This document shows, piece by piece, positions 37,401 through 47,611 of a stretch of 64,000 nt of DNA; within the stretch, counting starts at the first letter, position 1; each line of letters starts with the position of its first letter. The stretch is from Marinobacter lutaoensis (GTDB lineage: Bacteria > Pseudomonadota > Gammaproteobacteria > Pseudomonadales > Oleiphilaceae). Below the pieces are notes generated by a model. It worked only from the letters and a program-made list of their open reading frames with translations. It ran no database searches and was not told the origin of the DNA. The stretch is taken from positions 62,001 through 126,000 of the forward strand of contig NZ_MSCW01000004.1 in the NCBI RefSeq assembly GCF_001981305.1, in the 5' to 3' direction. Made by a program: the position numbers and the translations under genes.

Positions 37401-38852
37401 TTACGCTGTGGACGCGGCGACGATGGCGTACTCGTGGTTGTGGGGTTCGATCAAGGCACCGTGCAGTGCCACGATGGCCTTCTCGAAATGGTCCTCGTCC
37501 ATCACGAACTGGATGTCCACTTGGCGCATGCACTGATGGATGGCCAGGACGCTGATGCCGGCGTCCGCCAGTGATTTGACCGAACGCGACAGAATACCCG
37601 GCACTTTCATGTCGCTGCCAATGGCCGACACCAGCGCCACCTTGCGGGTGTTGATCTCGGCGTTGGGAAACGCCTCCTGAAGCGCCTTGACCACCCGCTT
37701 GACGTGCTTGAGCGTGCTGTCCACGTAGTGGGTGATGGTGTTGGCGTTGGTGTCCTTGGAGATGAAGCGGACCTTGAAACGGTTCAGGATGTCCAGGATC
37801 TTGCGATCCGAACCCGGCTCGCCCAGCATGTCCTGATCGAACACCTCGACGGCAAACACGCCCTTGGCGCCGGCGATGATTTCCACCTGCGGCTTCTCGC
37901 TGACGTAATCGCTGGTGATCAGGGTACCGGTGTGTTCCGGCTCGAAGGTGTTCATCACCCGCAGCGGAATCTCGTTCTGGCGCAGTCCCTTGCCGGCACG
38001 GGGGTGGATCGCTTCCATGCCCAGGTTGGCCAGCTGATCCGCCACGTCGTAATTGGTGCGCCCCAGCGGCACCACCTTATCCTCGCCGACAATCTTCGGG
38101 TCGGCGGAGCTGAGGTGGTATTCCTTGTGGATGATCGCCTCGCGGGCGTTGGTGATCACCGCCACCCGGCTGAAGGTCATTTCACTGTAGCCACGGTCGA
38201 AGGTGCGCATCAGCCCTTCCTTGCACTGGGCGTAACCGGTGACAATGGGCAGCTCGCGGCTCAGATCAATGGCGTCGAACGCCTGGCGAATCTTGTCGTC
38301 CAGCGGCAGCAGCTCGTTGTCGCGCCAGCCGGTGAGGTCCACGAAGCGGGCGTTGATGCCCTCCTGCTGCAACTTGAGGGCGGTATTGAAGGCGCTGTGC
38401 GCCTCGCCGATACCGGCCAGCATCTCGCGCACCGTCAGCAGATGCTCCTCCAGCTGAAATTGACCGTAAGAGCACAACCGCTGCAGGTCGATCAGGCAAC
38501 CACGCACCCCCTCGATGCGGTCGGTGATGAACTGGTCGGCCTGCTGCTTGAGCATCGGGTCCCGGAACAGCTTGCCGTTGATGTCGGTCAGCAGCTTGAT
38601 CAACTTGGTGAGGTCGTCGCCCCAGGCCCAGTCGGAGTCGGCGTCGGCGAACAGGGCATAAACCCCGGGCTCGCCGGTCTTCTTGTGTTCCAGCAGCTCG
38701 TTGGTGACGCCGCCGTAGGCCGACACCACGAAGATCCGCTGGTACAGGTCGCTCTTTCTGCGCTTGCCGAGGATGATGTTGTCGCGAACGGCCTCATAGT
38801 CGCTCATGGAGGTACCGCCGATTTTCTCGACGGTGTGTTGTGCTCTGGTCAT
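37401..38852 (-). CDS. ask: Aspartate kinase, ectoine-cluster type
   Basis: Phosphorylates aspartate, the first step toward aspartate semialdehyde, the precursor of ectoine. It is 483 residues, start at ATG 38852 (MTRAQHTVEKIGGTSMSDY). The kinase domain has VEKIGGTSM and the C-terminal part has two ACT regions (VALVSAIGSDMKVPGILSR). Ectoine-linked kinases are typically less feedback-inhibited, from family knowledge. It follows ectB by 54 bases; the usual ectC gene between them is absent. Confidence 0.92.
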   Translation of the reverse strand: MTRAQHTVEKIGGTSMSDYEAVRDNIILGKRRKSDLYQRIFVVSAYGGVTNELLEHKKTGEPGVYALFADADSDWAWGDDLTKLIKLLTDINGKLFRDPMLKQQADQFITDRIEGVRGCLIDLQRLCSYGQFQLEEHLLTVREMLAGIGEAHSAFNTALKLQQEGINARFVDLTGWRDNELLPLDDKIRQAFDAIDLSRELPIVTGYAQCKEGLMRTFDRGYSEMTFSRVAVITNAREAIIHKEYHLSSADPKIVGEDKVVPLGRTNYDVADQLANLGMEAIHPRAGKGLRQNEIPLRVMNTFEPEHTGTLITSDYVSEKPQVEIIAGAKGVFAVEVFDQDMLGEPGSDRKILDILNRFKVRFISKDTNANTITHYVDSTLKHVKRVVKALQEAFPNAEINTRKVALVSAIGSDMKVPGILSRSVKSLADAGISVLAIHQCMRQVDIQFVMDEDHFEKAIVALHGALIEPHNHEYAIVAASTA

Positions 38853-38906
38853 AAGTTTGCCTTCGCTATCGTGCAAGAGTGGGACGTTGGCCGGAACCGG
38901 GGCGCC

Positions 38907-40175
38907 TTACGACGCCTCGCTCACACCTTCCTGCAGGATCTCGTCGACACTCCGCGCCAGCAGGGACACGCCTTTTTTCAGGTCGTCCTCGCTGGTGGTC
39001 AGCGGCATCAGACACTTGATCACTTCATCGTTGGGACCACTGGTCTCGATGATCAGGCCGTGCTCGAAGGCCCGCCGGGTGATCGGACCGGTCAAGTCCG
39101 GGTTGCGCGCCTCGATACCACGCATCATGCCCCGCCCCTTCAGCCTGAACTGGCCCGGGTACTTGTCGCAGATCGCCTGCAGGGCATCGCCCAGAACCTT
39201 GGACTTGGCCTTGACCTCATTGGCGAAGGCGTCGTCCTTCCAGTAGTGCTCGATGGCCGCGCGGGCGGTAATGAAGGCCATGTTGTTGCCGCGGAAGGTG
39301 CCGTTGTGCTCGCCCGGGTCCCACACGTCCAACTCCGGTTTGAACAGCACCAGGGCCATCGGCAGGCCGTATCCGCTCAGGGATTTGGAGACAGTGACGA
39401 TGTCCGGCTTGATCCCGGCGAACTCGAAGCTGAAGAACTCACCGGTGCGGCCATTACCGGCCTGGATGTCGTCCACGATCAGCAGGATGTCGTGCTTACG
39501 GCACAGCTGTTCCAGGCCCTTGAGCCACTCGGAGCGGGCGGCGTTCAGCCCCCCTTCGCCCTGTACCGCCTCGACGATCACCGCCGCCGGCAGCTCGATG
39601 CCGGAGGAGTTGTCCGACAGCACCTTGTCCATGATCGCCAGGGTATCGACGTCGTCGCCCAGGTAGCCGTCGTAGAACATGAAATCGACGCTGCTGAGCG
39701 GGACGCCCACACCACCGCGGTGGTGCTGGTTACCGGTGGCCGCGACCGCCCCCATGGTGACGCCGTGGAAACCATTGGTGAAGGAGATGATGCCGGTCCG
39801 ACCCTTCACCTTGCGGGCCAGTTTCAGCGCCGCCTCGACGCAGTTGGTGCCGGTGGGGCCGGTGAACTGCATCTTGTAGTCCAGCCCCCGCGGCTCCAGG
39901 ATGTAGGTCTTGTAGGCCTCCATGAAGTCGTGCTTGGCGGTGGTGAACAGGTCCAGCCCCTGGCTTACGCCATCGGCCTCAATGTACTCGAGCAGCGCTC
40001 GCTTGAGGGTGTCGTTGTTGTGGCCGTAGTTCAGGGACCCGGCACCCGCCAGAAAGTCCAGGTATTCCTTGCCGTCCTCGGTGTACAGGTGGGCGTTCTT
40101 GGCACGGTTGAAGATGACCGGGAAGGCGCGGCTGTACACGCGGACTTCGGATTCGGTCGATTTGAAAATGTCCAT
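38907..40175 (-). CDS. ectB: L-2,4-diaminobutyrate:2-oxoglutarate aminotransferase
   Basis: PLP enzyme forming diaminobutyrate from aspartate semialdehyde; 422 residues. Start ATG 40175 matches the family N-terminus ([19 protein letters not shown]). Key parts are [18 protein letters not shown], the PLP-binding [14 protein letters not shown] and the lysine in VTVSKSLSG. It lies between ectA and ask, 139 bases after ectA, in a gap that holds a GC-rich hairpin. Confidence 0.97.
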
Positions 40176-40233
40176 GGTCTTGCCTCTTAGCATGTCAGGT
40201 TCGAGGTTGATTGCGCAGTGTTGCAAGCCGGGT

Positions 40234-40258
40234 GGCGGGCCCACCTCGGTGGCCCGCC
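40234..40258 (-). promoter_or_regulatory. GC-rich hairpin between ectA and ectB
   Basis: Stem of eight perfect pairs, 40234-40241 with 40251-40258, with further ACC/GGT pairing inside. There is no T-run, so it is more likely an mRNA-stability or partial attenuation element than a full terminator. Confidence 0.5.
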
Positions 40259-40314
40259 GGCTCTGTGCGTTGGCATGGTCGGGTCCGTGGCACCATGCGT
40301 CGTGAACTCCAGGC

Positions 40315-40830
40315 TCACACCGGCTTCGTGAACGGACCGATGCGCAGCAGGAATTCGGAATCGTGCTGGCCGCCGAAGTGGCGCGCCCTCTCAAAGTGCT
40401 CGTGATAACTCAGCTCGGCGCCGAGATCCCGGGCAAACGAGCGGAACAGCGCCCAGGAGGCGGCGTTGTCCCCGGTAATCGTGGTTTCCAGATGGGTCAC
40501 CTCCCGGCACGACTCACGGCCCACGATCTCCTTCAGCATGCGCTTGGCCAGCCCCTGGCCACGCCCTTTTTCATGCACCGCTACTTGCCAGACGAACAAG
40601 GTCTCCGGTTGTTTGGGAAGACGGTATCCGGAAATGAAGCCCACCAGCTCGCCATCCTTCTCCGCCGCCACGGCGGTATCGGCAAAATGGCTGCATTGCA
40701 GGAGGTTGCAGTAGATCGAGTTGGGGTCCAGCGGCGGGCACTCGGCCACCAGCTGGTGGAGTCTGAAGCCATCATCCTTGGTGGGTTGGCGCAGGGTGAT
40801 GGCGGTGGTATTCGATCCTTCGACGGTCAT
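40315..40830 (-). CDS. ectA: L-2,4-diaminobutyrate Ng-acetyltransferase
   Basis: GNAT-fold enzyme that acetylates diaminobutyrate to ADABA; 171 residues. Landmarks are [25 protein letters not shown] near the start (in part, [12 protein letters not shown]), [19 protein letters not shown], the acetyl-CoA loop [16 protein letters not shown], and [19 protein letters not shown]. First gene of the operon, preceded by a strong promoter with an overlapping palindrome. Confidence 0.97.
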
Positions 40831-40952: not shown

Positions 40953-41933
40953 TTAGCGCGAATGACAATCCCATGAAACTTTGGCAGGAAAGACCAGCTG
41001 TTCCGGCGTCAGGGCGGTGCCGGTCAGCAGCCGCTGGCGGTAGGAGCGTTCGGCCTCCGAGCCGGACGGCCACAGCGCGTCAAAGCGAGACAGCCACGCC
41101 GGCAGATCATAGGCCACCGGCACCAGGTCAAACCGGACGCCACGACAGGACACGCCCGCCAGCGCCTCCGGGGCCCCGGCCTCGCCGGCGGCCATGCGCA
41201 CCAGAAGGCCGCGCGGGTCGTTGCTCAGGTTGCCCATGCCCGCCGAGCCGTTGTTGACCACCACCCGCTCACCCCCGGCCACCGGGCCGGACCAGAGCAC
41301 CGGCAGGCAGGTGTGAGTGCACACCATGGCATCGGCACCGGTGGCACGGAACCAGTCCGCCACCTGCACCCCGTTGCCCGCCAGAAACGCCTCCCGGGCC
41401 AGGCCCCAGCCCGCCAGGGACTCCGGGTCACCGTGCAACAACAAAATCTTTAGGCCACCAAACATTAGACACCGGAAGCGGGGCAACCCCGACAGGGCCT
41501 GAGCCAAGTCCGGGTGCCGGGCCGCCACCGCCTGCAACCGCGCCATGATCCGGTTCGAACGCGCCACCACGCCGGCGTCGACAAAGTCGGGGTAGGCGCA
41601 GCCGCAACCGGCACCCGGCGAGGGCCGGGCCAGTTCGTACTCGACATTGCCCAGGCTGGCGGTGTGCGCCAGCACCCGCTCGTTCACCGCGCGGAACAGG
41701 GCATCACTGGCGTTGAACCAGTTGAAATCGCCGTTAAACAACAGGCGCACCCGACGCCCGGCCCGCCGCTCGGCCGCGGCCATGCGCTCGATCTCGTCCA
41801 GTGCCTCGAGGTTGCCGTACAAGCCGCCGATCACATACAGCACCTCGGCGGCGGCCGGCTCCGGCGACCGGCACAGGGTCTCGGGGCGGTACCGGTACGC
41901 CAGCGGGCAGGCTCGGCCTGCGTCCCCCGCCAC
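40953..41933 (-). CDS. Metallophosphatase-fold protein with degenerate metal ligands
   Basis: A 326-residue protein whose strand/loop pattern follows calcineurin-like phosphoesterases, but most signature ligands are changed: the GD-x-HGN site reads IGGLYGNLEAL, GNHE reads GNVE, and GHTH reads THTC in VCTHTCLPVL. The motifs NGDFNWF and LLHGDPES remain. A Cys-containing insert CGCAYPDF is present. Start is GTG 41933, two bases after the symporter stop, so it is translationally coupled. It is the last gene of an operon with a radical SAM enzyme. It may be a divergent enzyme or a non-catalytic partner. Confidence 0.7.
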   Translation of the reverse strand: MAGDAGRACPLAYRYRPETLCRSPEPAAAEVLYVIGGLYGNLEALDEIERMAAAERRAGRRVRLLFNGDFNWFNASDALFRAVNERVLAHTASLGNVEYELARPSPGAGCGCAYPDFVDAGVVARSNRIMARLQAVAARHPDLAQALSGLPRFRCLMFGGLKILLLHGDPESLAGWGLAREAFLAGNGVQVADWFRATGADAMVCTHTCLPVLWSGPVAGGERVVVNNGSAGMGNLSNDPRGLLVRMAAGEAGAPEALAGVSCRGVRFDLVPVAYDLPAWLSRFDALWPSGSEAERSYRQRLLTGTALTPEQLVFPAKVSWDCHSR

Positions 41934-41935
41934 GG

Positions 41936-43339
41936 TCAGGCCTCACCCGCGGCCAGGGAACGGCCAGCCAGGCGCCGCAGAAGCAGCGGCAGGAAAAAGC
42001 CGGCCGTGCAGATCAGGAAGCCCCAGGCGTTCACCCCCAGCAGCAGCCCGTACTTGCCGTCGCCGATGGCCCAGCTGGCCGGAATCAGGCCGACCGCCAG
42101 CAGCACGCCCAGGGTCAGGCCGGACCAGAAACTGAGATGGAAGCTCCAGGGCGACCAGCGGGTGACACTGTAAAACAGGAACACCGGCGCCAGCCCCATC
42201 ACCATGGTGCCGGAGATGGTGGTGGCCTTGAGGATGTCGGTGCCGGCGAACATCGGCAGATTGCCGAGCAGGGCAAATACCACCATCACCACCGCACCCA
42301 GGCGCAGGCTGGGCAACCGCTCCCGCGCCCGCGAGGCCAGCCGGGGCAAGTCCACCGCCAGCGACTTGGCCAGCGAAGTGAAGGTGGAGTCTAGGGTGGA
42401 ACCGGCCGAGGTCATCATCACCACGCTCATGAAGAACAGCGCCGCCAGCCCCAGCGACTGGCCCACGGCGGCGGGCGCGTTGCCCATGGCGTCAATGCCG
42501 TTGAGCCGGGCATGCACGCCCACCAGACTGAAGATGAACACTGCCACGAACCCCAGCAGACCCGCCACCACGAAGCTCTTGAGCATGGTCTTTTCCTTGT
42601 TGACGAAGCCCCGGTCGGTCAGCACCGGGTCATGGAAGGGGTAACTGAACAGCTGCAGCAACGCCACCAGCAGCAGATCGAACCCCGCCTCCAGGCGGAA
42701 CTCACCGCTGCCAAGCAGCGCGCCGGGACCGTTGGCCGGCAGGATCAGGAACAGCACCGCGCCCACGAAGAACACGAACACCACCGCCTGAATCACATCG
42801 GTGAAAATCGAGGAGCGCAGGCCACCTTTGAGACTGTAGGCGAGGGTAAACAGGGTGAACAACATGGCTGCGGTGTAGTAGGGCCACTCGCCGGGTCGGC
42901 CGAAGTAGCCGCCGACCACTGCGGTGTTGCTCCACACTTCGTTGTACAGCCGGATCAGCACCGCCGCGGCGAACGCCAGCGCCGCCAGGCGACCGAACCG
43001 GGACGTGAGGAAATCCTGCAGGCTGCGGGCACCGGTCTGGGTCCGGATCAGGTAGATGATGTAGCCCGCCACCGGAATCGACAGCCAGTAGCTGGCGTAG
43101 GCCAGCCCGCCAACCACGCCATAGGCGGCTCCCAGGTTGGCGGCGTTGGTCACCGACTTGGCGAAGATCCAGCTGATGAAGAGGCTCGCCGTCAGCGACC
43201 ATTGCCCGACCGGGTTACCCTGGTCGTCCGCGCCCCGATAGAAGGACTCCGCCGTGCGGCTGCGGGGCGACAAGGCGTACATCACCACCCCGTACACCAG
43301 CAGGAAGCCCCAGAACACCATTGCCTCGATTGTTGTCAT
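41936..43339 (-). CDS. Sodium:solute symporter (SSS family)
   Basis: Inner-membrane Na+-coupled transporter, 467 residues with about thirteen helices. Recognisable parts are the N-terminal SKSV-type sodium region (FISWIFAKSVTNAANLGAAYG), the LYNEVWSNTAVVGGYFG loop and MTSAGSTLDSTFTSLAKSLAVD, which holds the conserved Na2-site serines. Substrate unknown. It lies 42 bases after the radical SAM gene and directly before the phosphatase-fold gene. Confidence 0.88.
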   Translation of the reverse strand: MTTIEAMVFWGFLLVYGVVMYALSPRSRTAESFYRGADDQGNPVGQWSLTASLFISWIFAKSVTNAANLGAAYGVVGGLAYASYWLSIPVAGYIIYLIRTQTGARSLQDFLTSRFGRLAALAFAAAVLIRLYNEVWSNTAVVGGYFGRPGEWPYYTAAMLFTLFTLAYSLKGGLRSSIFTDVIQAVVFVFFVGAVLFLILPANGPGALLGSGEFRLEAGFDLLLVALLQLFSYPFHDPVLTDRGFVNKEKTMLKSFVVAGLLGFVAVFIFSLVGVHARLNGIDAMGNAPAAVGQSLGLAALFFMSVVMMTSAGSTLDSTFTSLAKSLAVDLPRLASRARERLPSLRLGAVVMVVFALLGNLPMFAGTDILKATTISGTMVMGLAPVFLFYSVTRWSPWSFHLSFWSGLTLGVLLAVGLIPASWAIGDGKYGLLLGVNAWGFLICTAGFFLPLLLRRLAGRSLAAGEA

Positions 43340-43381
43340 CGTCGTTGTCCACCTTGTCTCTGTGTTGTCCGCCGGCCCCGG

Positions 43382-44350
43382 TCACGCCGGTGCCGAGCAG
43401 CTGGCGCCGAACCGGTAGCAGGCAAAGCACCGGTGGTGGCGCAGCATGATGCGCTGTTCCAGGCTTTCCGCCAGGGTCCCGCCCAGGTCGTACTGGGGGT
43501 CGTCGTCCACCAGGGTGCAGGCATACACCCGGACCCGCCCCTGTGTCTTCACCAGCATACGGGTGTAGGTGCACATGAAGTGGGCCCGGCTTTCCCGGGT
43601 CGGATATTTTTCCATGCAGGTCTCGGTGATTTCCGGACTGCCGTCCTCCGAGCCCGGCACCCCCAGGTCGGGAAAGGCGGTAAACGCCAGCGATTCGGGT
43701 ATGCCGTGGGCACGGAACCGGGCGCGGAAGGCCGCTTCCACCGCCGCCGCGTCCTCGCCCGGGTCCGACTGCCGGGCGATGGACACCCGGAACCCCTGGG
43801 CCACCAGCCAGGCAATGCCTTCCATCGCCCGGGCGAAACTGCCCTCGCCACGACCGGCGTCGTGCCGGGCCGGGTCCGGGTGGTCCAGGCTGACCCGGAA
43901 GTGAATCGGATGCGGCTGCCGGACCAGGGGCGCCACCTGATGCCGGCGCCGCAACAGCGGTTCGGTGGCATTGGTGAGCACGAAGCAGGGCCGGTGCTCG
44001 CTGGCGTACGCGAGCAGGTTGACGAAGTCGCGGATCACGAACGGCTCGCCACCGGTGAAGGAAAACTGCTCGACCCCCAGAGCCAGGGCTTCGTCCAGCC
44101 GGGGCCGGGCGTCCGCCAGGGTCATGCCTTCAATGCGTCGGTCTCCCGGTTTCGAGCCCTCCAGACAGAACGGGCAGGCCAGGTTGCAGGCGGTGCCGGT
44201 GTGGATCCAGAGCTCTTTGAGCCGGTCGCTGTCGATGTAACCCCGGGGCTCGCCGTCGCGGGTGTGGGTCCAGCTGTCCCGGGCCCGGGGCTCCAGCACT
44301 TCGACGGCGGCAATGCGGCCGCCGGTCTTGCGGGTTTCAATCAGGGACAT
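43382..44350 (-). CDS. Radical SAM protein with C-terminal cysteines
   Basis: A 322-residue enzyme expected to cleave S-adenosylmethionine to a 5'-deoxyadenosyl radical. The 4Fe-4S motif is CNLACPFCLEG (about 55-65), followed by FSFTGGEPF (SAM binding). The C-terminal region has further cysteines (FMCTYTRM, VYACTLVDDD, HRCFACYRFGASCSA), a short SPASM-like or auxiliary-cluster arrangement. A GAGGAGAG site precedes ATG 44350. The substrate is not recognisable; no small precursor-peptide ORF is evident nearby. Confidence 0.82.
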   Translation of the reverse strand: MSLIETRKTGGRIAAVEVLEPRARDSWTHTRDGEPRGYIDSDRLKELWIHTGTACNLACPFCLEGSKPGDRRIEGMTLADARPRLDEALALGVEQFSFTGGEPFVIRDFVNLLAYASEHRPCFVLTNATEPLLRRRHQVAPLVRQPHPIHFRVSLDHPDPARHDAGRGEGSFARAMEGIAWLVAQGFRVSIARQSDPGEDAAAVEAAFRARFRAHGIPESLAFTAFPDLGVPGSEDGSPEITETCMEKYPTRESRAHFMCTYTRMLVKTQGRVRVYACTLVDDDPQYDLGGTLAESLEQRIMLRHHRCFACYRFGASCSAPA

Positions 44351-44426
44351 GGTCTCTCCTCGTTTATTGTTGCCTGTGACAACAGGGACACGGTCCTCGC
44401 GGCAATGTTACAGTGGCCGCGACCGT

Positions 44427-46601
44427 TCATTCCGACCCCGGATGGGCGGGGCCGCCCCGGCGCCAGCCATGAAACCGTTCCAGCCAGCGCAGCAGCCGCT
44501 GGGGCGCGTGCGCCCGTTTCCACTCCCCGGCGGCGTACTTGGCGGCCTCGCCCCAGGTCGGGTAGGGGTGAATGGTGGCCAGCAGCCGGTTCAGGCCCAG
44601 GCCGTGCGTCATCGCCAGGGTAAACTCGGCCAGGATGGCCCCGGCCTGGGCACCCACCACCACCGCCCCCAGGATCCGGTCCCGGCCCGGCACGGTGAGC
44701 ACCTTGACGAACCCTCGCGCCTCGCCGTCGGCAATGGCCCGGTCCAGGTCGTCCAGGTCGTAGCGGGTCACCTCGTAGGGCACGCCCCGGGCCCGGGCCT
44801 CCTCCTCGCTCAGCCCCACCCGCGCCACCTCCGGACTGGTGAAGGTAACCCAGGGCATCACCCGGTAGTCCACCCGAAACCGCCGGAACTGGCCGAACAG
44901 GCCGTTTACCGCCGCGTACCAAGCTTGATGGGCGGCGGCGTGGGTAAACTGATAAGGCCCGGCGACATCGCCGCAGGCAAACACATGGGGGTAGCGTAGG
45001 CTCAGATCCTCGTTCACCGGCAGGGTGCCGTTGGCCCGGGGCTCCAGACCGATCCGCTCCAGCGCCAGCCCCTGGGTGTTGCCCACCCGTCCCAGCGCCA
45101 CCAGCACCTCATCGAATGGAATACGCAGACACTGGCCGTCCTGTTCACAGTAGGCCACCTTCTCGCCCTGTTCGAGCCGGAACTCCGTGGCCGTGCAGTT
45201 CAGGCGAAGGTCGATGCCGTCGGCCTGGAATTGGTGCATGACCAGCGTCGACACGTCGGAGTCCTCCCGGGACAGCAGGCGATCGGCCCGTTCCACCTGG
45301 ATCACCTGGCTGCCCAGGCGGGCAAACGCCTGGGCCAGCTCGCAGCCGATCGGGCCGCCGCCCAGCACCAGCAGACGCCCCGGCGGCTCGCGCAGGGACC
45401 ACACCGTATCCGAGGTCAGCGGCGCCATGTCCGCCAAGCCGGGGATCGGCGGCATCGCCGGCCGGCCGCCGGTGGCCAGGATGATGCTGCGGGCCGTCAG
45501 GCGCCGGCAGCTGCCATCCGCCGCCCGCACCTCCACTTCCCAGGGTGTCACGAAAGACGCCTCGCCGGCCAGGCAGTCCACACCGAGGGCCCGGTAACGC
45601 TCCGGCGAGTCGTGTGGCTCCACCTGGCGGATCACCGCCTGCACCCGCTCCATGACGGTGCGGAACGAGCCCTGTACCGGCACCGACGCCAGGCCGTAAC
45701 GATCCGCGTGGCGCAGGGTATCGGCGACCCGGGCGCTGCGGATCAGGGCCTTGGACGGCACGCAGCCGGTGTTCAGGCAGTCGCCGCCCATGCGTTGGCG
45801 TTCGATCAGCGCCACCTTCGCCTTGACGGCGGCGGCGATGTACGCCGATACCAGACCCGCCGAGCCGGCGCCGATGACGATCAGGTTGTAGTCAAACACC
45901 CTGGGTCGACGCCAGCCGGCGTAGACCCGGCGTCGGCGCAGCCAGGCCACCAGGGCCCTGGCCAGGAGTGGGAACAGACCGAGCAGGGCGAACGACAGCA
46001 GCAGCCCGCCCGAGACGATGTCCCCCGGGGCCTCGACCTGGCCCAGCTGGGTGCCGGCGTTGACGTACACGAAGGTCCCGGGCAGCATCGCCAGCCAGCT
46101 GACCCAGGCATAGGTCCACAACCGCATGCCGGTGAGCCCCATCACCAGGTTGACCAGGAAGAACGGAAACACCGGCACCAAGCGCAGGGTGGCCAGGTAG
46201 AAGGCACCATCGCGCTCGATGCCCCGGTCGATACGGGCCACGGTGTCCCGGTAACGGGCCCGCAGCGTGTCCCGGAGCAGGAACCGCGCCACCAGGAAGG
46301 CGACGCAGGCACCGACGGTAGACGCCAGGGACACCGCCAGCAAGCCCAGCAGGTTGCCGAACAGGGCGCCCCCGGCCAGGGTCAGCACCGCGGCGCCCGG
46401 CAGCGACAGCGACGTGACCAGGACATAGGTCAGGGTGTAGGCCAGCAACGCCAGGGTCCGGTGTTCGCCGATCCAAAACGTCAGCGCCTGACGGTTCTCT
46501 TTCAGCGCCTCCAGGGTCAGCCACTGGTCGGCCCCCAGCAGCCAGAAACTGGCCACCGCCAGCACAATCAGGGCAATCAGCACCCGCTTTCCGTTGTTCA
46601 T
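44427..46601 (-). CDS. Membrane-anchored flavin disulfide reductase (VTT/TVP38 domain fused to MerA/Lpd-like domain)
   Basis: A 724-residue fusion. Residues about 10-215 form a VTT (TVP38/TMEM64) membrane domain (LPGAAVLTLAGGALFGNLLG, RLVPVFPFFLVNLVMGL). Residues about 240-700 are a pyridine nucleotide-disulfide oxidoreductase with FAD motif VIGAGSAGL, redox-active CLNTGCVPSKA, NAD motif VLGGGPIGCELA, and the dimer-domain active site HPYPTWGEA. Start ATG 46601 has TGGAG upstream. There is no MerA C-terminal Cys pair, so mercury reduction is not supported. First gene of the operon with the radical SAM gene. Confidence 0.85.
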   Translation of the reverse strand: MNNGKRVLIALIVLAVASFWLLGADQWLTLEALKENRQALTFWIGEHRTLALLAYTLTYVLVTSLSLPGAAVLTLAGGALFGNLLGLLAVSLASTVGACVAFLVARFLLRDTLRARYRDTVARIDRGIERDGAFYLATLRLVPVFPFFLVNLVMGLTGMRLWTYAWVSWLAMLPGTFVYVNAGTQLGQVEAPGDIVSGGLLLSFALLGLFPLLARALVAWLRRRRVYAGWRRPRVFDYNLIVIGAGSAGLVSAYIAAAVKAKVALIERQRMGGDCLNTGCVPSKALIRSARVADTLRHADRYGLASVPVQGSFRTVMERVQAVIRQVEPHDSPERYRALGVDCLAGEASFVTPWEVEVRAADGSCRRLTARSIILATGGRPAMPPIPGLADMAPLTSDTVWSLREPPGRLLVLGGGPIGCELAQAFARLGSQVIQVERADRLLSREDSDVSTLVMHQFQADGIDLRLNCTATEFRLEQGEKVAYCEQDGQCLRIPFDEVLVALGRVGNTQGLALERIGLEPRANGTLPVNEDLSLRYPHVFACGDVAGPYQFTHAAAHQAWYAAVNGLFGQFRRFRVDYRVMPWVTFTSPEVARVGLSEEEARARGVPYEVTRYDLDDLDRAIADGEARGFVKVLTVPGRDRILGAVVVGAQAGAILAEFTLAMTHGLGLNRLLATIHPYPTWGEAAKYAAGEWKRAHAPQRLLRWLERFHGWRRGGPAHPGSE

Positions 46602-46748
46602 GATGGTCTCCAGTACCGGAACGTTTCCCTTCAAACACGCAGCCGCGCCGATTGTTACACGAGTGAACCAAACCCGCGATCACCCCTCAAACCCGGCACG
46701 GGTTTCGCGACGGGGTGAACTATCCTTTGATAACAGGAAGCAACCGCT

Positions 46749-47369
46749 GTGGATACACAGGTGACCGATAACCAGGAAGCACAACTGATCCGAGGGCTCA
46801 GGGCGCGGGACGAATCCGCCTTCCGCGAGGCGGTCCGGAACTATACCCCCGGCATGATGGCGGTGGCCCGGTTCTATCTGGACCACGCCGCGGCCGAGGA
46901 CGTGGTGCAGGATTGCTGGGTCACGGTCGTGACCGCGATCCGCGACTTCGAGGGCCGCTCCGGGCTGAAGACCTGGCTGCACCGGATCGTCGCCAACCGC
47001 TGCAAGAACCGCCTGCGCACCGCCCACCGGGAAGTGAACACCGAGTTCTCCGACGCCCTGGAGCCGGAGCTGGCCAAACGCTTCGACGCCCGGGGCCACT
47101 GGCAGAGCCCGCCGAGACAGCGTTGGTCGGAGGCCGCCGACGCCCTGTTGGAGAACGGCGCCCTGAACGACTGCCTGGACAAGCACCTGGGTCACCTGCC
47201 GGAAACCCAGCGTTCGGCCCTGATGCTCTACGAGGCCCACCAGCGCAGATCGGACGAGGTCTGTAACATTCTCGGGGTCAGCGCGTCCAACCTTCGGGTG
47301 CTGTTGCACCGGGCACGACAGAAAATCTTTCTCATGGTGGAAACGTTTCAGGAGACGGGCGAATGCTAA
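46749..47369 (+). CDS. ECF-type RNA polymerase sigma factor
   Basis: A 206-residue alternative sigma factor; GTG start at 46749. Region 2 is visible in YLDHAAAEDVVQDCWVTV and FEGRSGLKTWLHRIVANRCKN, and region 4 in HLPETQRSALMLYEAHQRRS and LGVSASNLRVLLHRARQKI. It overlaps the anti-sigma gene by seven bases and is divergent from the VTT-reductase operon, which it may control. Confidence 0.92.
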   Translation: MDTQVTDNQEAQLIRGLRARDESAFREAVRNYTPGMMAVARFYLDHAAAEDVVQDCWVTVVTAIRDFEGRSGLKTWLHRIVANRCKNRLRTAHREVNTEFSDALEPELAKRFDARGHWQSPPRQRWSEAADALLENGALNDCLDKHLGHLPETQRSALMLYEAHQRRSDEVCNILGVSASNLRVLLHRARQKIFLMVETFQETGEC

Positions 47370-47611
47370 AGTGCCGGGATCTGGTGCGGGTGGCCAGCGA
47401 CTATCTGGACGGGGAGCTGGACTGGCGGCAACGGCTGTCGGTATGGACGCACCTAGCCATCTGCGGCCACTGCCGGACCTTTCTCGGCAACCTCCGGGCC
47501 ACCACCGCGTTGATGCGGGGCCACTCCGACAACCGGGCCCGGGAAGCGCTGGTCCGGCGCATCGACGAGCGCGTGGCGGAGGCCCTGGCCCGGGCCGAGG
47601 ACCCGCCGTAA
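47363..47611 (+). CDS. Zinc-finger anti-sigma factor (zf-HC2)
   Basis: An 82-residue soluble protein. It carries the zf-HC2 pattern: CRDLVRVASDYLDGELDWRQ at the start (in part) and HLAICGHC, i.e. Cys then His-X3-Cys-X2-Cys as zinc ligands. Such ZAS-type anti-sigma factors hold the cognate ECF sigma inactive until a redox or metal signal. There is no membrane helix, so sensing is cytoplasmic. Overlaps the sigma gene (translational coupling). Confidence 0.88.
   Translation: MLKCRDLVRVASDYLDGELDWRQRLSVWTHLAICGHCRTFLGNLRATTALMRGHSDNRAREALVRRIDERVAEALARAEDPP

Follow-up and report, generated by a model that had tools for sequence, protein, structure and literature searches.

A Marinobacter operon proposed to serve an arsenosugar-type pathway with a radical SAM enzyme in place of ArsS

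Four adjoining minus-strand genes lie within a 64,000-nucleotide stretch of the Marinobacter lutaoensis genome (contig NZ_MSCW01000004.1), called here the window, and encode a VTT-flavin disulfide reductase, a radical S-adenosylmethionine (SAM) enzyme, a sodium:solute symporter and a protein of phosphatase fold. We propose that the operon belongs to an organoarsenical pathway of the arsenosugar type. According to one report, ArsS is the radical SAM enzyme that adenosylates arsenic in arsenosugar synthesis (PMC12159101), and another assigns the first steps of this synthesis in Synechocystis to SsArsM and SsArsS (PMC8552651).

Results

Organization and conservation of the operon

Read from 5′ to 3′, the operon starts with the VTT-flavin reductase gene (44427-46601), encoding a 724-amino-acid (AA) protein in which a VTT-domain membrane protein is fused to a flavin adenine dinucleotide (FAD) disulfide reductase of the MerA/lipoamide-dehydrogenase type. 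This is followed by the radical SAM gene (43382-44350, 322 AA), whose product is the proposed functional replacement of ArsS, the symporter gene (41936-43339, 467 AA) for the proposed importer of the pathway substrate, and the phosphatase-fold gene (40953-41933, 326 AA), encoding a degenerate metallophosphoesterase fold. The coordinates of the open reading frames (ORFs) bear out the original prediction of four minus-strand genes separated by gaps of 76, 42 and 2 bases. Translational coupling of the symporter and phosphatase-fold genes is plausible from the 2-base spacing and the GTG start at their junction.

The identities proposed earlier for the first three products agree with their Pfam domains: VTT_dom, Pyr_redox_2 and Pyr_redox_dim in the reductase, Radical_SAM in the second protein, and SSF (PF00474; 42.7 bits, cut-off 22.8) in the symporter. 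The redox pair of the VTT-flavin reductase lies within GGDCLNTGCVPSK. With the mercuric reductase model MerA (TIGR02053) the protein scored 361.8 bits, under the equivalog cut-off of 454.45.

Related loci were taken as the best 80 of 271 for the radical SAM protein; by title 77 of them are Marinobacter, the remainder being Oleiphilaceae, Psychrobacter and Tamilnaduibacter. Matches to all four genes were found in 70 of the 80, with conserved gene order (in two of these 70, L051 and L059, the symporter match spans only 62 residues), and at least two of the other 10 loci, L016 and L036, are interrupted by contig ends. Only 42 bases separate the window's radical SAM gene from its symporter gene, vs. 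400-450 or more in many relatives (L011-L090), up to a maximum of 667. In the 16 gaps of relatives inspected, no ORF common to all was seen; similar translations do recur in them, suggesting repeated intergenic elements.

Two incomplete copies were also noted. On plasmid pHP-187 of Marinobacter adhaerens HP15 (L161, 9001-11758) the radical SAM gene is present as two overlapping pieces followed by the symporter gene; neither the phosphatase-fold protein nor the VTT-flavin reductase had a match there, and this plasmid copy is apparently decaying. A lone radical SAM gene, 74% identical and without matches to the other three genes, is found in a Psychrobacter-labelled genome (Psychrobacter sp. 72-O-c; L088, 8001-8951), which points to either transfer or contamination.

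Sequence and fold of the radical SAM protein

The protein scored 39.8 bits with the ArsS model TIGR04167, below the curated cut-off of 300, and gave no Pfam match to DUF3641 (PF12345), a domain that reaches 184.8 bits in the ArsS of locus L197 (described below). We therefore rejected the possibility that it is a simple ArsS orthologue. The top NCBIfam model was Rv1681 (NF049973), with 103.2 bits, also below its cut-off of 380.

The original prediction had remarked on extra cysteines. In a 40-sequence alignment, from which eight of 47 family sequences had been excluded (L029, L078, L082, L089, L124, L131, L142 and L147), nine cysteines are invariant: the CX3CX2C motif (C55, C59, C62) and six beyond it (C245, C260, C278, C308, C311, C318). 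Profile comparison with ArsS aligned 267 columns reaching the C-terminus (probability 98.7%, E 1.5e-16), with five C-terminal cysteines lining up, whereas the comparison with MftC covered the core only (159 columns) at a stronger E of 1e-18. The RG-x-GSF stretch, considered as a special link to ArsS, was discarded as MftC carries it too. A selenoprotein was likewise rejected; when 40 loci were translated past the alignment end, the flagged stop codons came only beyond the SC motif, where the protein ends.

We take the C-terminal cysteine spacing to resemble that of SPASM/Twitch domains generally, and it was not used as proof. Since SPASM/Twitch domains have similar spacing and the solved structures closest in fold are SkfB and BlsE, common descent specifically with ArsS is not supported, and the proposal that the enzyme works in place of ArsS rests on gene context.

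An Rv1681-like radical SAM gene was also observed on a plasmid of Mycolicibacterium vanbaalenii (L202, 4991-10849), immediately after a gene for a PhnD/SsuA-type binding protein, with genes for another radical SAM protein and a methyltransferase close by; this locus is perhaps an actinobacterial counterpart.

Gene neighborhoods shared with ArsS

Neighborhoods of canonical ArsS (TIGR04167 above cut-off) were inspected in the 15 gammaproteobacterial genomes among 83 carrying it. At one of them, from another family of the same order (L197), ArsS is followed in a row on one strand by genes for relatives of the symporter (59% identity), the phosphatase-fold protein (39%) and the VTT-flavin reductase (59%). 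This is the gene set of the window with ArsS substituting for the window radical SAM gene and the order changed, so the gene set does occur beyond close relatives, which was the neighborhood check suggested with the original prediction. A second locus (L198) has the order ArsS, symporter (60%), VTT-flavin reductase (57%), TIGR04282-type and TIGR04283-type glycosyltransferase genes. In all, symporter relatives of 59-60% identity directly adjoin ArsS in two of the 15 loci (L197, L198), and phosphatase-fold relatives (39 and 45%) stand beside it in two (L197, L199). The fused VTT-flavin reductase, 54-61% identical to that of the window, lies within 10 kb of ArsS in seven of the 15, and an eighth has VTT and flavin reductase as separate genes. 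A plain mercury or thiol stress operon was rejected, as the reductase is under the MerA cut-off and accompanies ArsS loci.

Outside the Marinobacter set, about 10 kb around the radical SAM gene was examined at 40 loci of the family from 38 genomes. ArsM-type methyltransferase genes were found in 10 loci, TIGR04282/04283-type genes in 12, methylthioadenosine (MTA) phosphorylase in five, and VTT and/or flavin reductase in 11 (one of which, L137, was counted on a 32% match); 15 loci had at least one of these partners. In seven gammaproteobacterial loci (L113-L117, L119 and L122), radical SAM relatives of 47-62% identity share a gene run with an ArsM-type methyltransferase, accompanied by varying sets of TIGR04282-type, TIGR04283-type and MTA phosphorylase genes, and three of the runs include a fused VTT-flavin reductase. 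Three other gammaproteobacterial loci (L118, L120 and L121) showed none of the arsenosugar-type partners. In locus L127 the TIGR04283 protein scored 214.9 bits, above the cut-off of 182, and the MTA phosphorylase was above that of TIGR01694.

On a Roseomonas plasmid, TIGR04282, another radical SAM protein, a phosphonate-type ATP-binding cassette (ABC) transporter and a metallophosphoesterase are encoded beside a family member; genes for a VTT protein, a flavin reductase and a glycosyltransferase lie further along. In two alphaproteobacterial loci (L162 and L125), the place of the symporter pair beside the radical SAM gene is taken by a phosphonate-type ABC transporter and a degenerate metallophosphoesterase.

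The original prediction could name no pathway for the four genes. That part did not hold, since the gene set accompanies ArsS, ArsM-type, TIGR04282/TIGR04283 and MTA phosphorylase genes; the more general interpretation offered with it, a system that takes up and modifies a small molecule, agrees with the present results.

Co-occurrence across genomes

In a sample of 397 proteobacterial genomes, the window radical SAM family was found in 45 and ArsS in 83, and no genome had both (9.4 expected, hypergeometric P 1.3e-5). TIGR04283 was detected at E 1e-20 in 156 of the 397: in 42 of the 45 family genomes and 81 of the 83 with ArsS, compared with 33 of the 269 that had neither enzyme (Fisher P 7e-28, 45 vs. 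269). When only scores over the curated cut-off were accepted, the counts were 34/45, 77/83 and 11/269 (P 2e-26). These P values ignore shared ancestry and are hence too small, and with 5 to 7 candidates scored per genome some of the absences are possibly misses.

Two of the three family genomes without TIGR04283 (G559 and G569, included in the 45) match only residues 16-219 of the radical SAM protein and may belong to another family; the third (G159) has ArsM-type, MTA phosphorylase and TIGR04282-type genes. In the genome of the window, TIGR04283 is present on another contig (272 bits, cut-off 182) with a TIGR04282-type gene adjoining it.

Symporter and phosphatase-fold protein

No Pfam match was obtained for the phosphatase-fold protein. 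Its predicted structure is that of a calcineurin-like metallophosphoesterase (predicted local distance difference test score, pLDDT, 93.2), and a VIA-align comparison of the model with PH1004 gave Z 20.8 and a root-mean-square deviation (rmsd) of 3.2 over 236 residues, in line with the degenerate metallophosphatase originally suggested. We compared 18 sequences, including two alphaproteobacterial ones 26% identical to that of the window, using calcineurin-like motif and metal-ligand positions which we take to apply here. All 18 have Gly and Tyr at the places of the motif I aspartate and histidine and retain D69, N96, H167 and H207, and a C-G-C triplet (110-112) is invariant. The final histidine of GHxH is a cysteine (HTC) in the gammaproteobacterial members, and in the two alphaproteobacterial ones a cysteine lies one place earlier. 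By this presumed ligand assignment, one metal site would be lost and the other kept. We can only guess that the cysteines might bind arsenic through their thiols.

Phosphatase-fold relatives were found in four of 54 genomes with ArsS or the window radical SAM family (G559 and G569 excluded) vs. none of 80 taken to lack both; symporter relatives of at least 59% identity were found in three of the 54 vs. none of the 80. Five further genomes of the 54 gave symporter matches at 34-37%, probably from other branches of the superfamily. In gammaproteobacteria alone the counts were 4/19 vs. 0/61 for the phosphatase-fold protein (P 0.002) and 3/19 vs. 0/61 for the symporter (P 0.012). The same queries and limits thus found matches in the 54-genome set, unlike in the 80 control genomes. 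Outside Marinobacter and its kin, the symporter and phosphatase-fold genes are uncommon partners; in one genome (G712) the two adjoin each other on a different contig from the radical SAM gene.

ArsM-type genes and the source of methylated arsenic

With a single ArsM query, no ArsM-type match at E 1e-25 was found in the genome of the window. Two other Marinobacter genomes gave incomplete matches (G003, a fragment; G013, partial at 38%), and M. mobilis (L080), one of the 80 Marinobacter-type loci, has a further ArsM-type gene at a distance of about 5 kb from its operon. Six of the 15 gammaproteobacterial ArsS genomes had an ArsM-type match. Because an importer is part of the operon and ArsM is rare in the genus, uptake of methylated arsenic made elsewhere is a natural reading, and we keep it as a lead. 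Importer and ArsM occur together in G712, G020 and L080; as Marinobacter is one lineage and such cases of joint occurrence exist, an anticorrelation of importer and ArsM was set aside as evidence and retained as a lead only.

Candidate promoters and an adjoining sigma factor

Divergent from the operon, on the plus strand, are a gene for an extracytoplasmic function (ECF) sigma factor (46749-47369; Sigma70_r2 and Sigma70_r4_2) and an overlapping gene for a zf-HC2 anti-sigma factor (47363-47611; zf-HC2, 33 bits). Among the 80 related loci, 50 have a match to the sigma factor and 49 to the anti-sigma factor. The original prediction delimited the four genes correctly and omitted this pair along with two promoter-like sites on the minus strand, one, of ECF type, upstream of the reductase gene (46637-46659) and one between the reductase and radical SAM genes (44390-44412). 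Both read TGTAAC-N14-CGT, a motif first picked by eye before the reductase gene, and they are the only two perfect occurrences in the whole window; with one mismatch allowed there are five matches, which is the chance level.

The relaxed motif was present before the reductase gene in 37 of 78 upstream regions (the window and 77 loci) vs. 1.1 expected from mononucleotide shuffles, a comparison that overstates the enrichment because related upstream sequences are not independent. It was found in 32 of the 51 upstream regions with an ECF match in the locus vs. five of the 27 without. The strict motif occurred 32 times before the reductase gene in the 78 loci and 16 times elsewhere, eight of these 16 lying between the reductase and radical SAM genes. 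Directly before the glycosyltransferase pairs (L167-L171) the strict motif was not seen, and nine ArsS loci (L187-L189 and L195-L200) likewise showed none before ArsS; at L189 an N13 version lies about 120 bases before ArsS. The operon probably has its own sigma factor. The first promoter-like site also favours ATG at 46601 over TTG at 46634 as the reductase start, because the TTG would fall at or before the likely transcript start.

Two further observations concern the surroundings. Directly downstream of the operon (37401-40830), ectoine-cluster-like translations (acetyltransferase, aminotransferase and aspartokinase, assigned by eye) were noted. DoxX/MauE-type membrane proteins with weak Pfam scores recur near the operon and its relatives (L113, 12096-12545; L148, 13358-13777; and 11 of the 80 Marinobacter-type loci).

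Discussion

Taken together, gene order, partner genes and mutual exclusion with ArsS argue that the operon serves an organoarsenical pathway of the arsenosugar type, with a radical SAM enzyme from another branch substituting for ArsS, and we put the probability of this reading at roughly two in three. In such a pathway the sodium symporter would import a small substrate, most likely a methylated arsenical, and the VTT-flavin reductase would provide reducing power in the form of thiols, so that the arsenic stays or becomes trivalent. The radical SAM enzyme would then join the 5′-deoxyadenosyl group of SAM to trivalent arsenic. The phosphatase-fold protein may deal with an intermediate, either by removing phosphate or by binding the arsenical via its cysteines, and the TIGR04283/TIGR04282 pair on the other contig could complete the sugar, with a phosphorylase step that we infer from relatives. 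The adjoining ECF sigma factor would turn the operon on.

A broader statement can be made: a second arsenic-adenosylating radical SAM family, mutually exclusive with ArsS, may stand behind arsenosugar synthesis in many Alpha- and Gammaproteobacteria, with Marinobacter also scavenging the methylated arsenic of others and having a cysteine-modified phosphatase-fold partner that handles arsenicals and its own ECF sigma control. The statement is tentative, and we rate its chances at somewhat under even.

Besides the limits on the co-occurrence counts given above, several results weigh against the arsenosugar assignment. Six other NCBIfam radical SAM models outscore ArsS on the window protein, its core gives a stronger alignment to an Rv1681-like protein (197 columns, core only, E 1e-29), and the closest solved folds are the peptide maturase SkfB (Z 19.8, rmsd 3.0, 237 residues; a SPASM/Twitch-maturase likeness in fold only) and BlsE. 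Of the 25 genomes from the same genus, only G020 had a full-length ArsM-type match, at about 14 kb from its radical SAM gene; the figure for other genomes carrying the enzyme was 18 of 41, and 25 of the 40 non-Marinobacter loci have none of the partners within about 10 kb. Some of the partners themselves are borderline: the TIGR04282 protein of L127 (126.7 bits) is slightly under the cut-off of 134, the fused TIGR04282/04283 protein of L115 is slightly under both cut-offs, and the ArsM-type protein of L113 reaches no NCBIfam cut-off, its best score being 175/263 bits with the arsenite methyltransferase model. The label of TIGR04282/04283 as arsenosugar biosynthesis glycosyltransferases presumably rests on association.

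An alternative is that the substrate is not arsenic and is instead, for example, a selenium, phosphorus or sulfur compound, handled by a pathway that shares glycosyltransferases and reductase with arsenosugar synthesis. The lack of a full-length ArsM-type match in 24 of the 25 same-genus and 23 of the 41 other genomes, and the pairing of the family with a phosphonate-type ABC transporter in the alphaproteobacterial loci L162 and L125, speak for such a pathway. Yet the same partners adjoin canonical ArsS, and several radical SAM relatives directly adjoin ArsM-type genes, which makes a different substrate unlikely in our judgement. A reversed direction, in which arsenosugars or other arsenicals enter through the symporter and are then degraded or detoxified by the enzymes, is more doubtful still: an importer and a phosphatase-fold protein do go together in gammaproteobacteria (symporter; the window and L197) and in alphaproteobacteria (phosphonate-type ABC transporter; L125 and L162), but the position taken by ArsS and the glycosyltransferases indicate synthesis. 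That the radical SAM protein is a maturase of ribosomally synthesized and post-translationally modified peptides (RiPPs), as its nearest solved fold SkfB could suggest, is very improbable and was rejected, because the 76-, 42- and 2-base gaps leave no space for a precursor gene, the 16 larger gaps inspected in relatives showed no ORF common to all of them, and 42 of the 45 family genomes match TIGR04283.

If the arsenosugar assignment is true, bacteria without ArsS, including Marinobacter, can perform the key step of arsenosugar synthesis and are overlooked by surveys of ArsS only. The makers of the arsenosugars of marine food webs are still debated. With the operon, the pathway could be tested in a bacterium open to genetic work, using a promoter and an importer, and it would be an example of one radical SAM enzyme replacing another inside a common gene set. 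A search of the open-access literature found no description of an ArsS substitute or of a Marinobacter arsenosugar operon, though one may be in print.

Comparison with known systems

The window radical SAM protein shares with ArsS (TIGR04167) the CX3CX2C motif and a similar C-terminal spacing, MC..C..HxxCx2C..SC; it differs in missing the model cut-off (39.8 vs. 300 bits), in having no match to DUF3641 and in sharing no genome with ArsS among the 397. The Rv1681 family (NF049973) gives the highest NCBIfam score for the core, 103 bits, yet this is under the cut-off of 380, and the C-terminal cysteine segment of the window family does not align with the Rv1681-like protein of L202. The phosphatase-fold protein has its fold in common with the asymmetric diadenosine tetraphosphate (Ap4A) hydrolase SapH (Z 20.7, rmsd 3.2, 239 residues), whereas it differs from SapH and other calcineurin-like phosphoesterases in the motif I changes of D to G and H to Y, in the cysteine replacing the last H of GHxH, and in the extra C-G-C.

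Among whole systems, the arsinothricin cluster arsQML likewise handles an organoarsenical with a radical SAM enzyme, ArsM and a transporter; it differs in that ArsL transfers a 3-amino-3-carboxypropyl group and ArsQ is a proposed exporter, and the accessible text of the report mentions no glycosyltransferases (PMC8552651). The closest likeness in gene context is to the ArsM-ArsS arsenosugar pathway of the Synechocystis type: proteobacterial ArsS loci share with the window family the VTT-flavin reductase, the symporter, the phosphatase-fold protein, the TIGR04282/04283-type glycosyltransferases, MTA phosphorylase and the ArsM-type methyltransferase.

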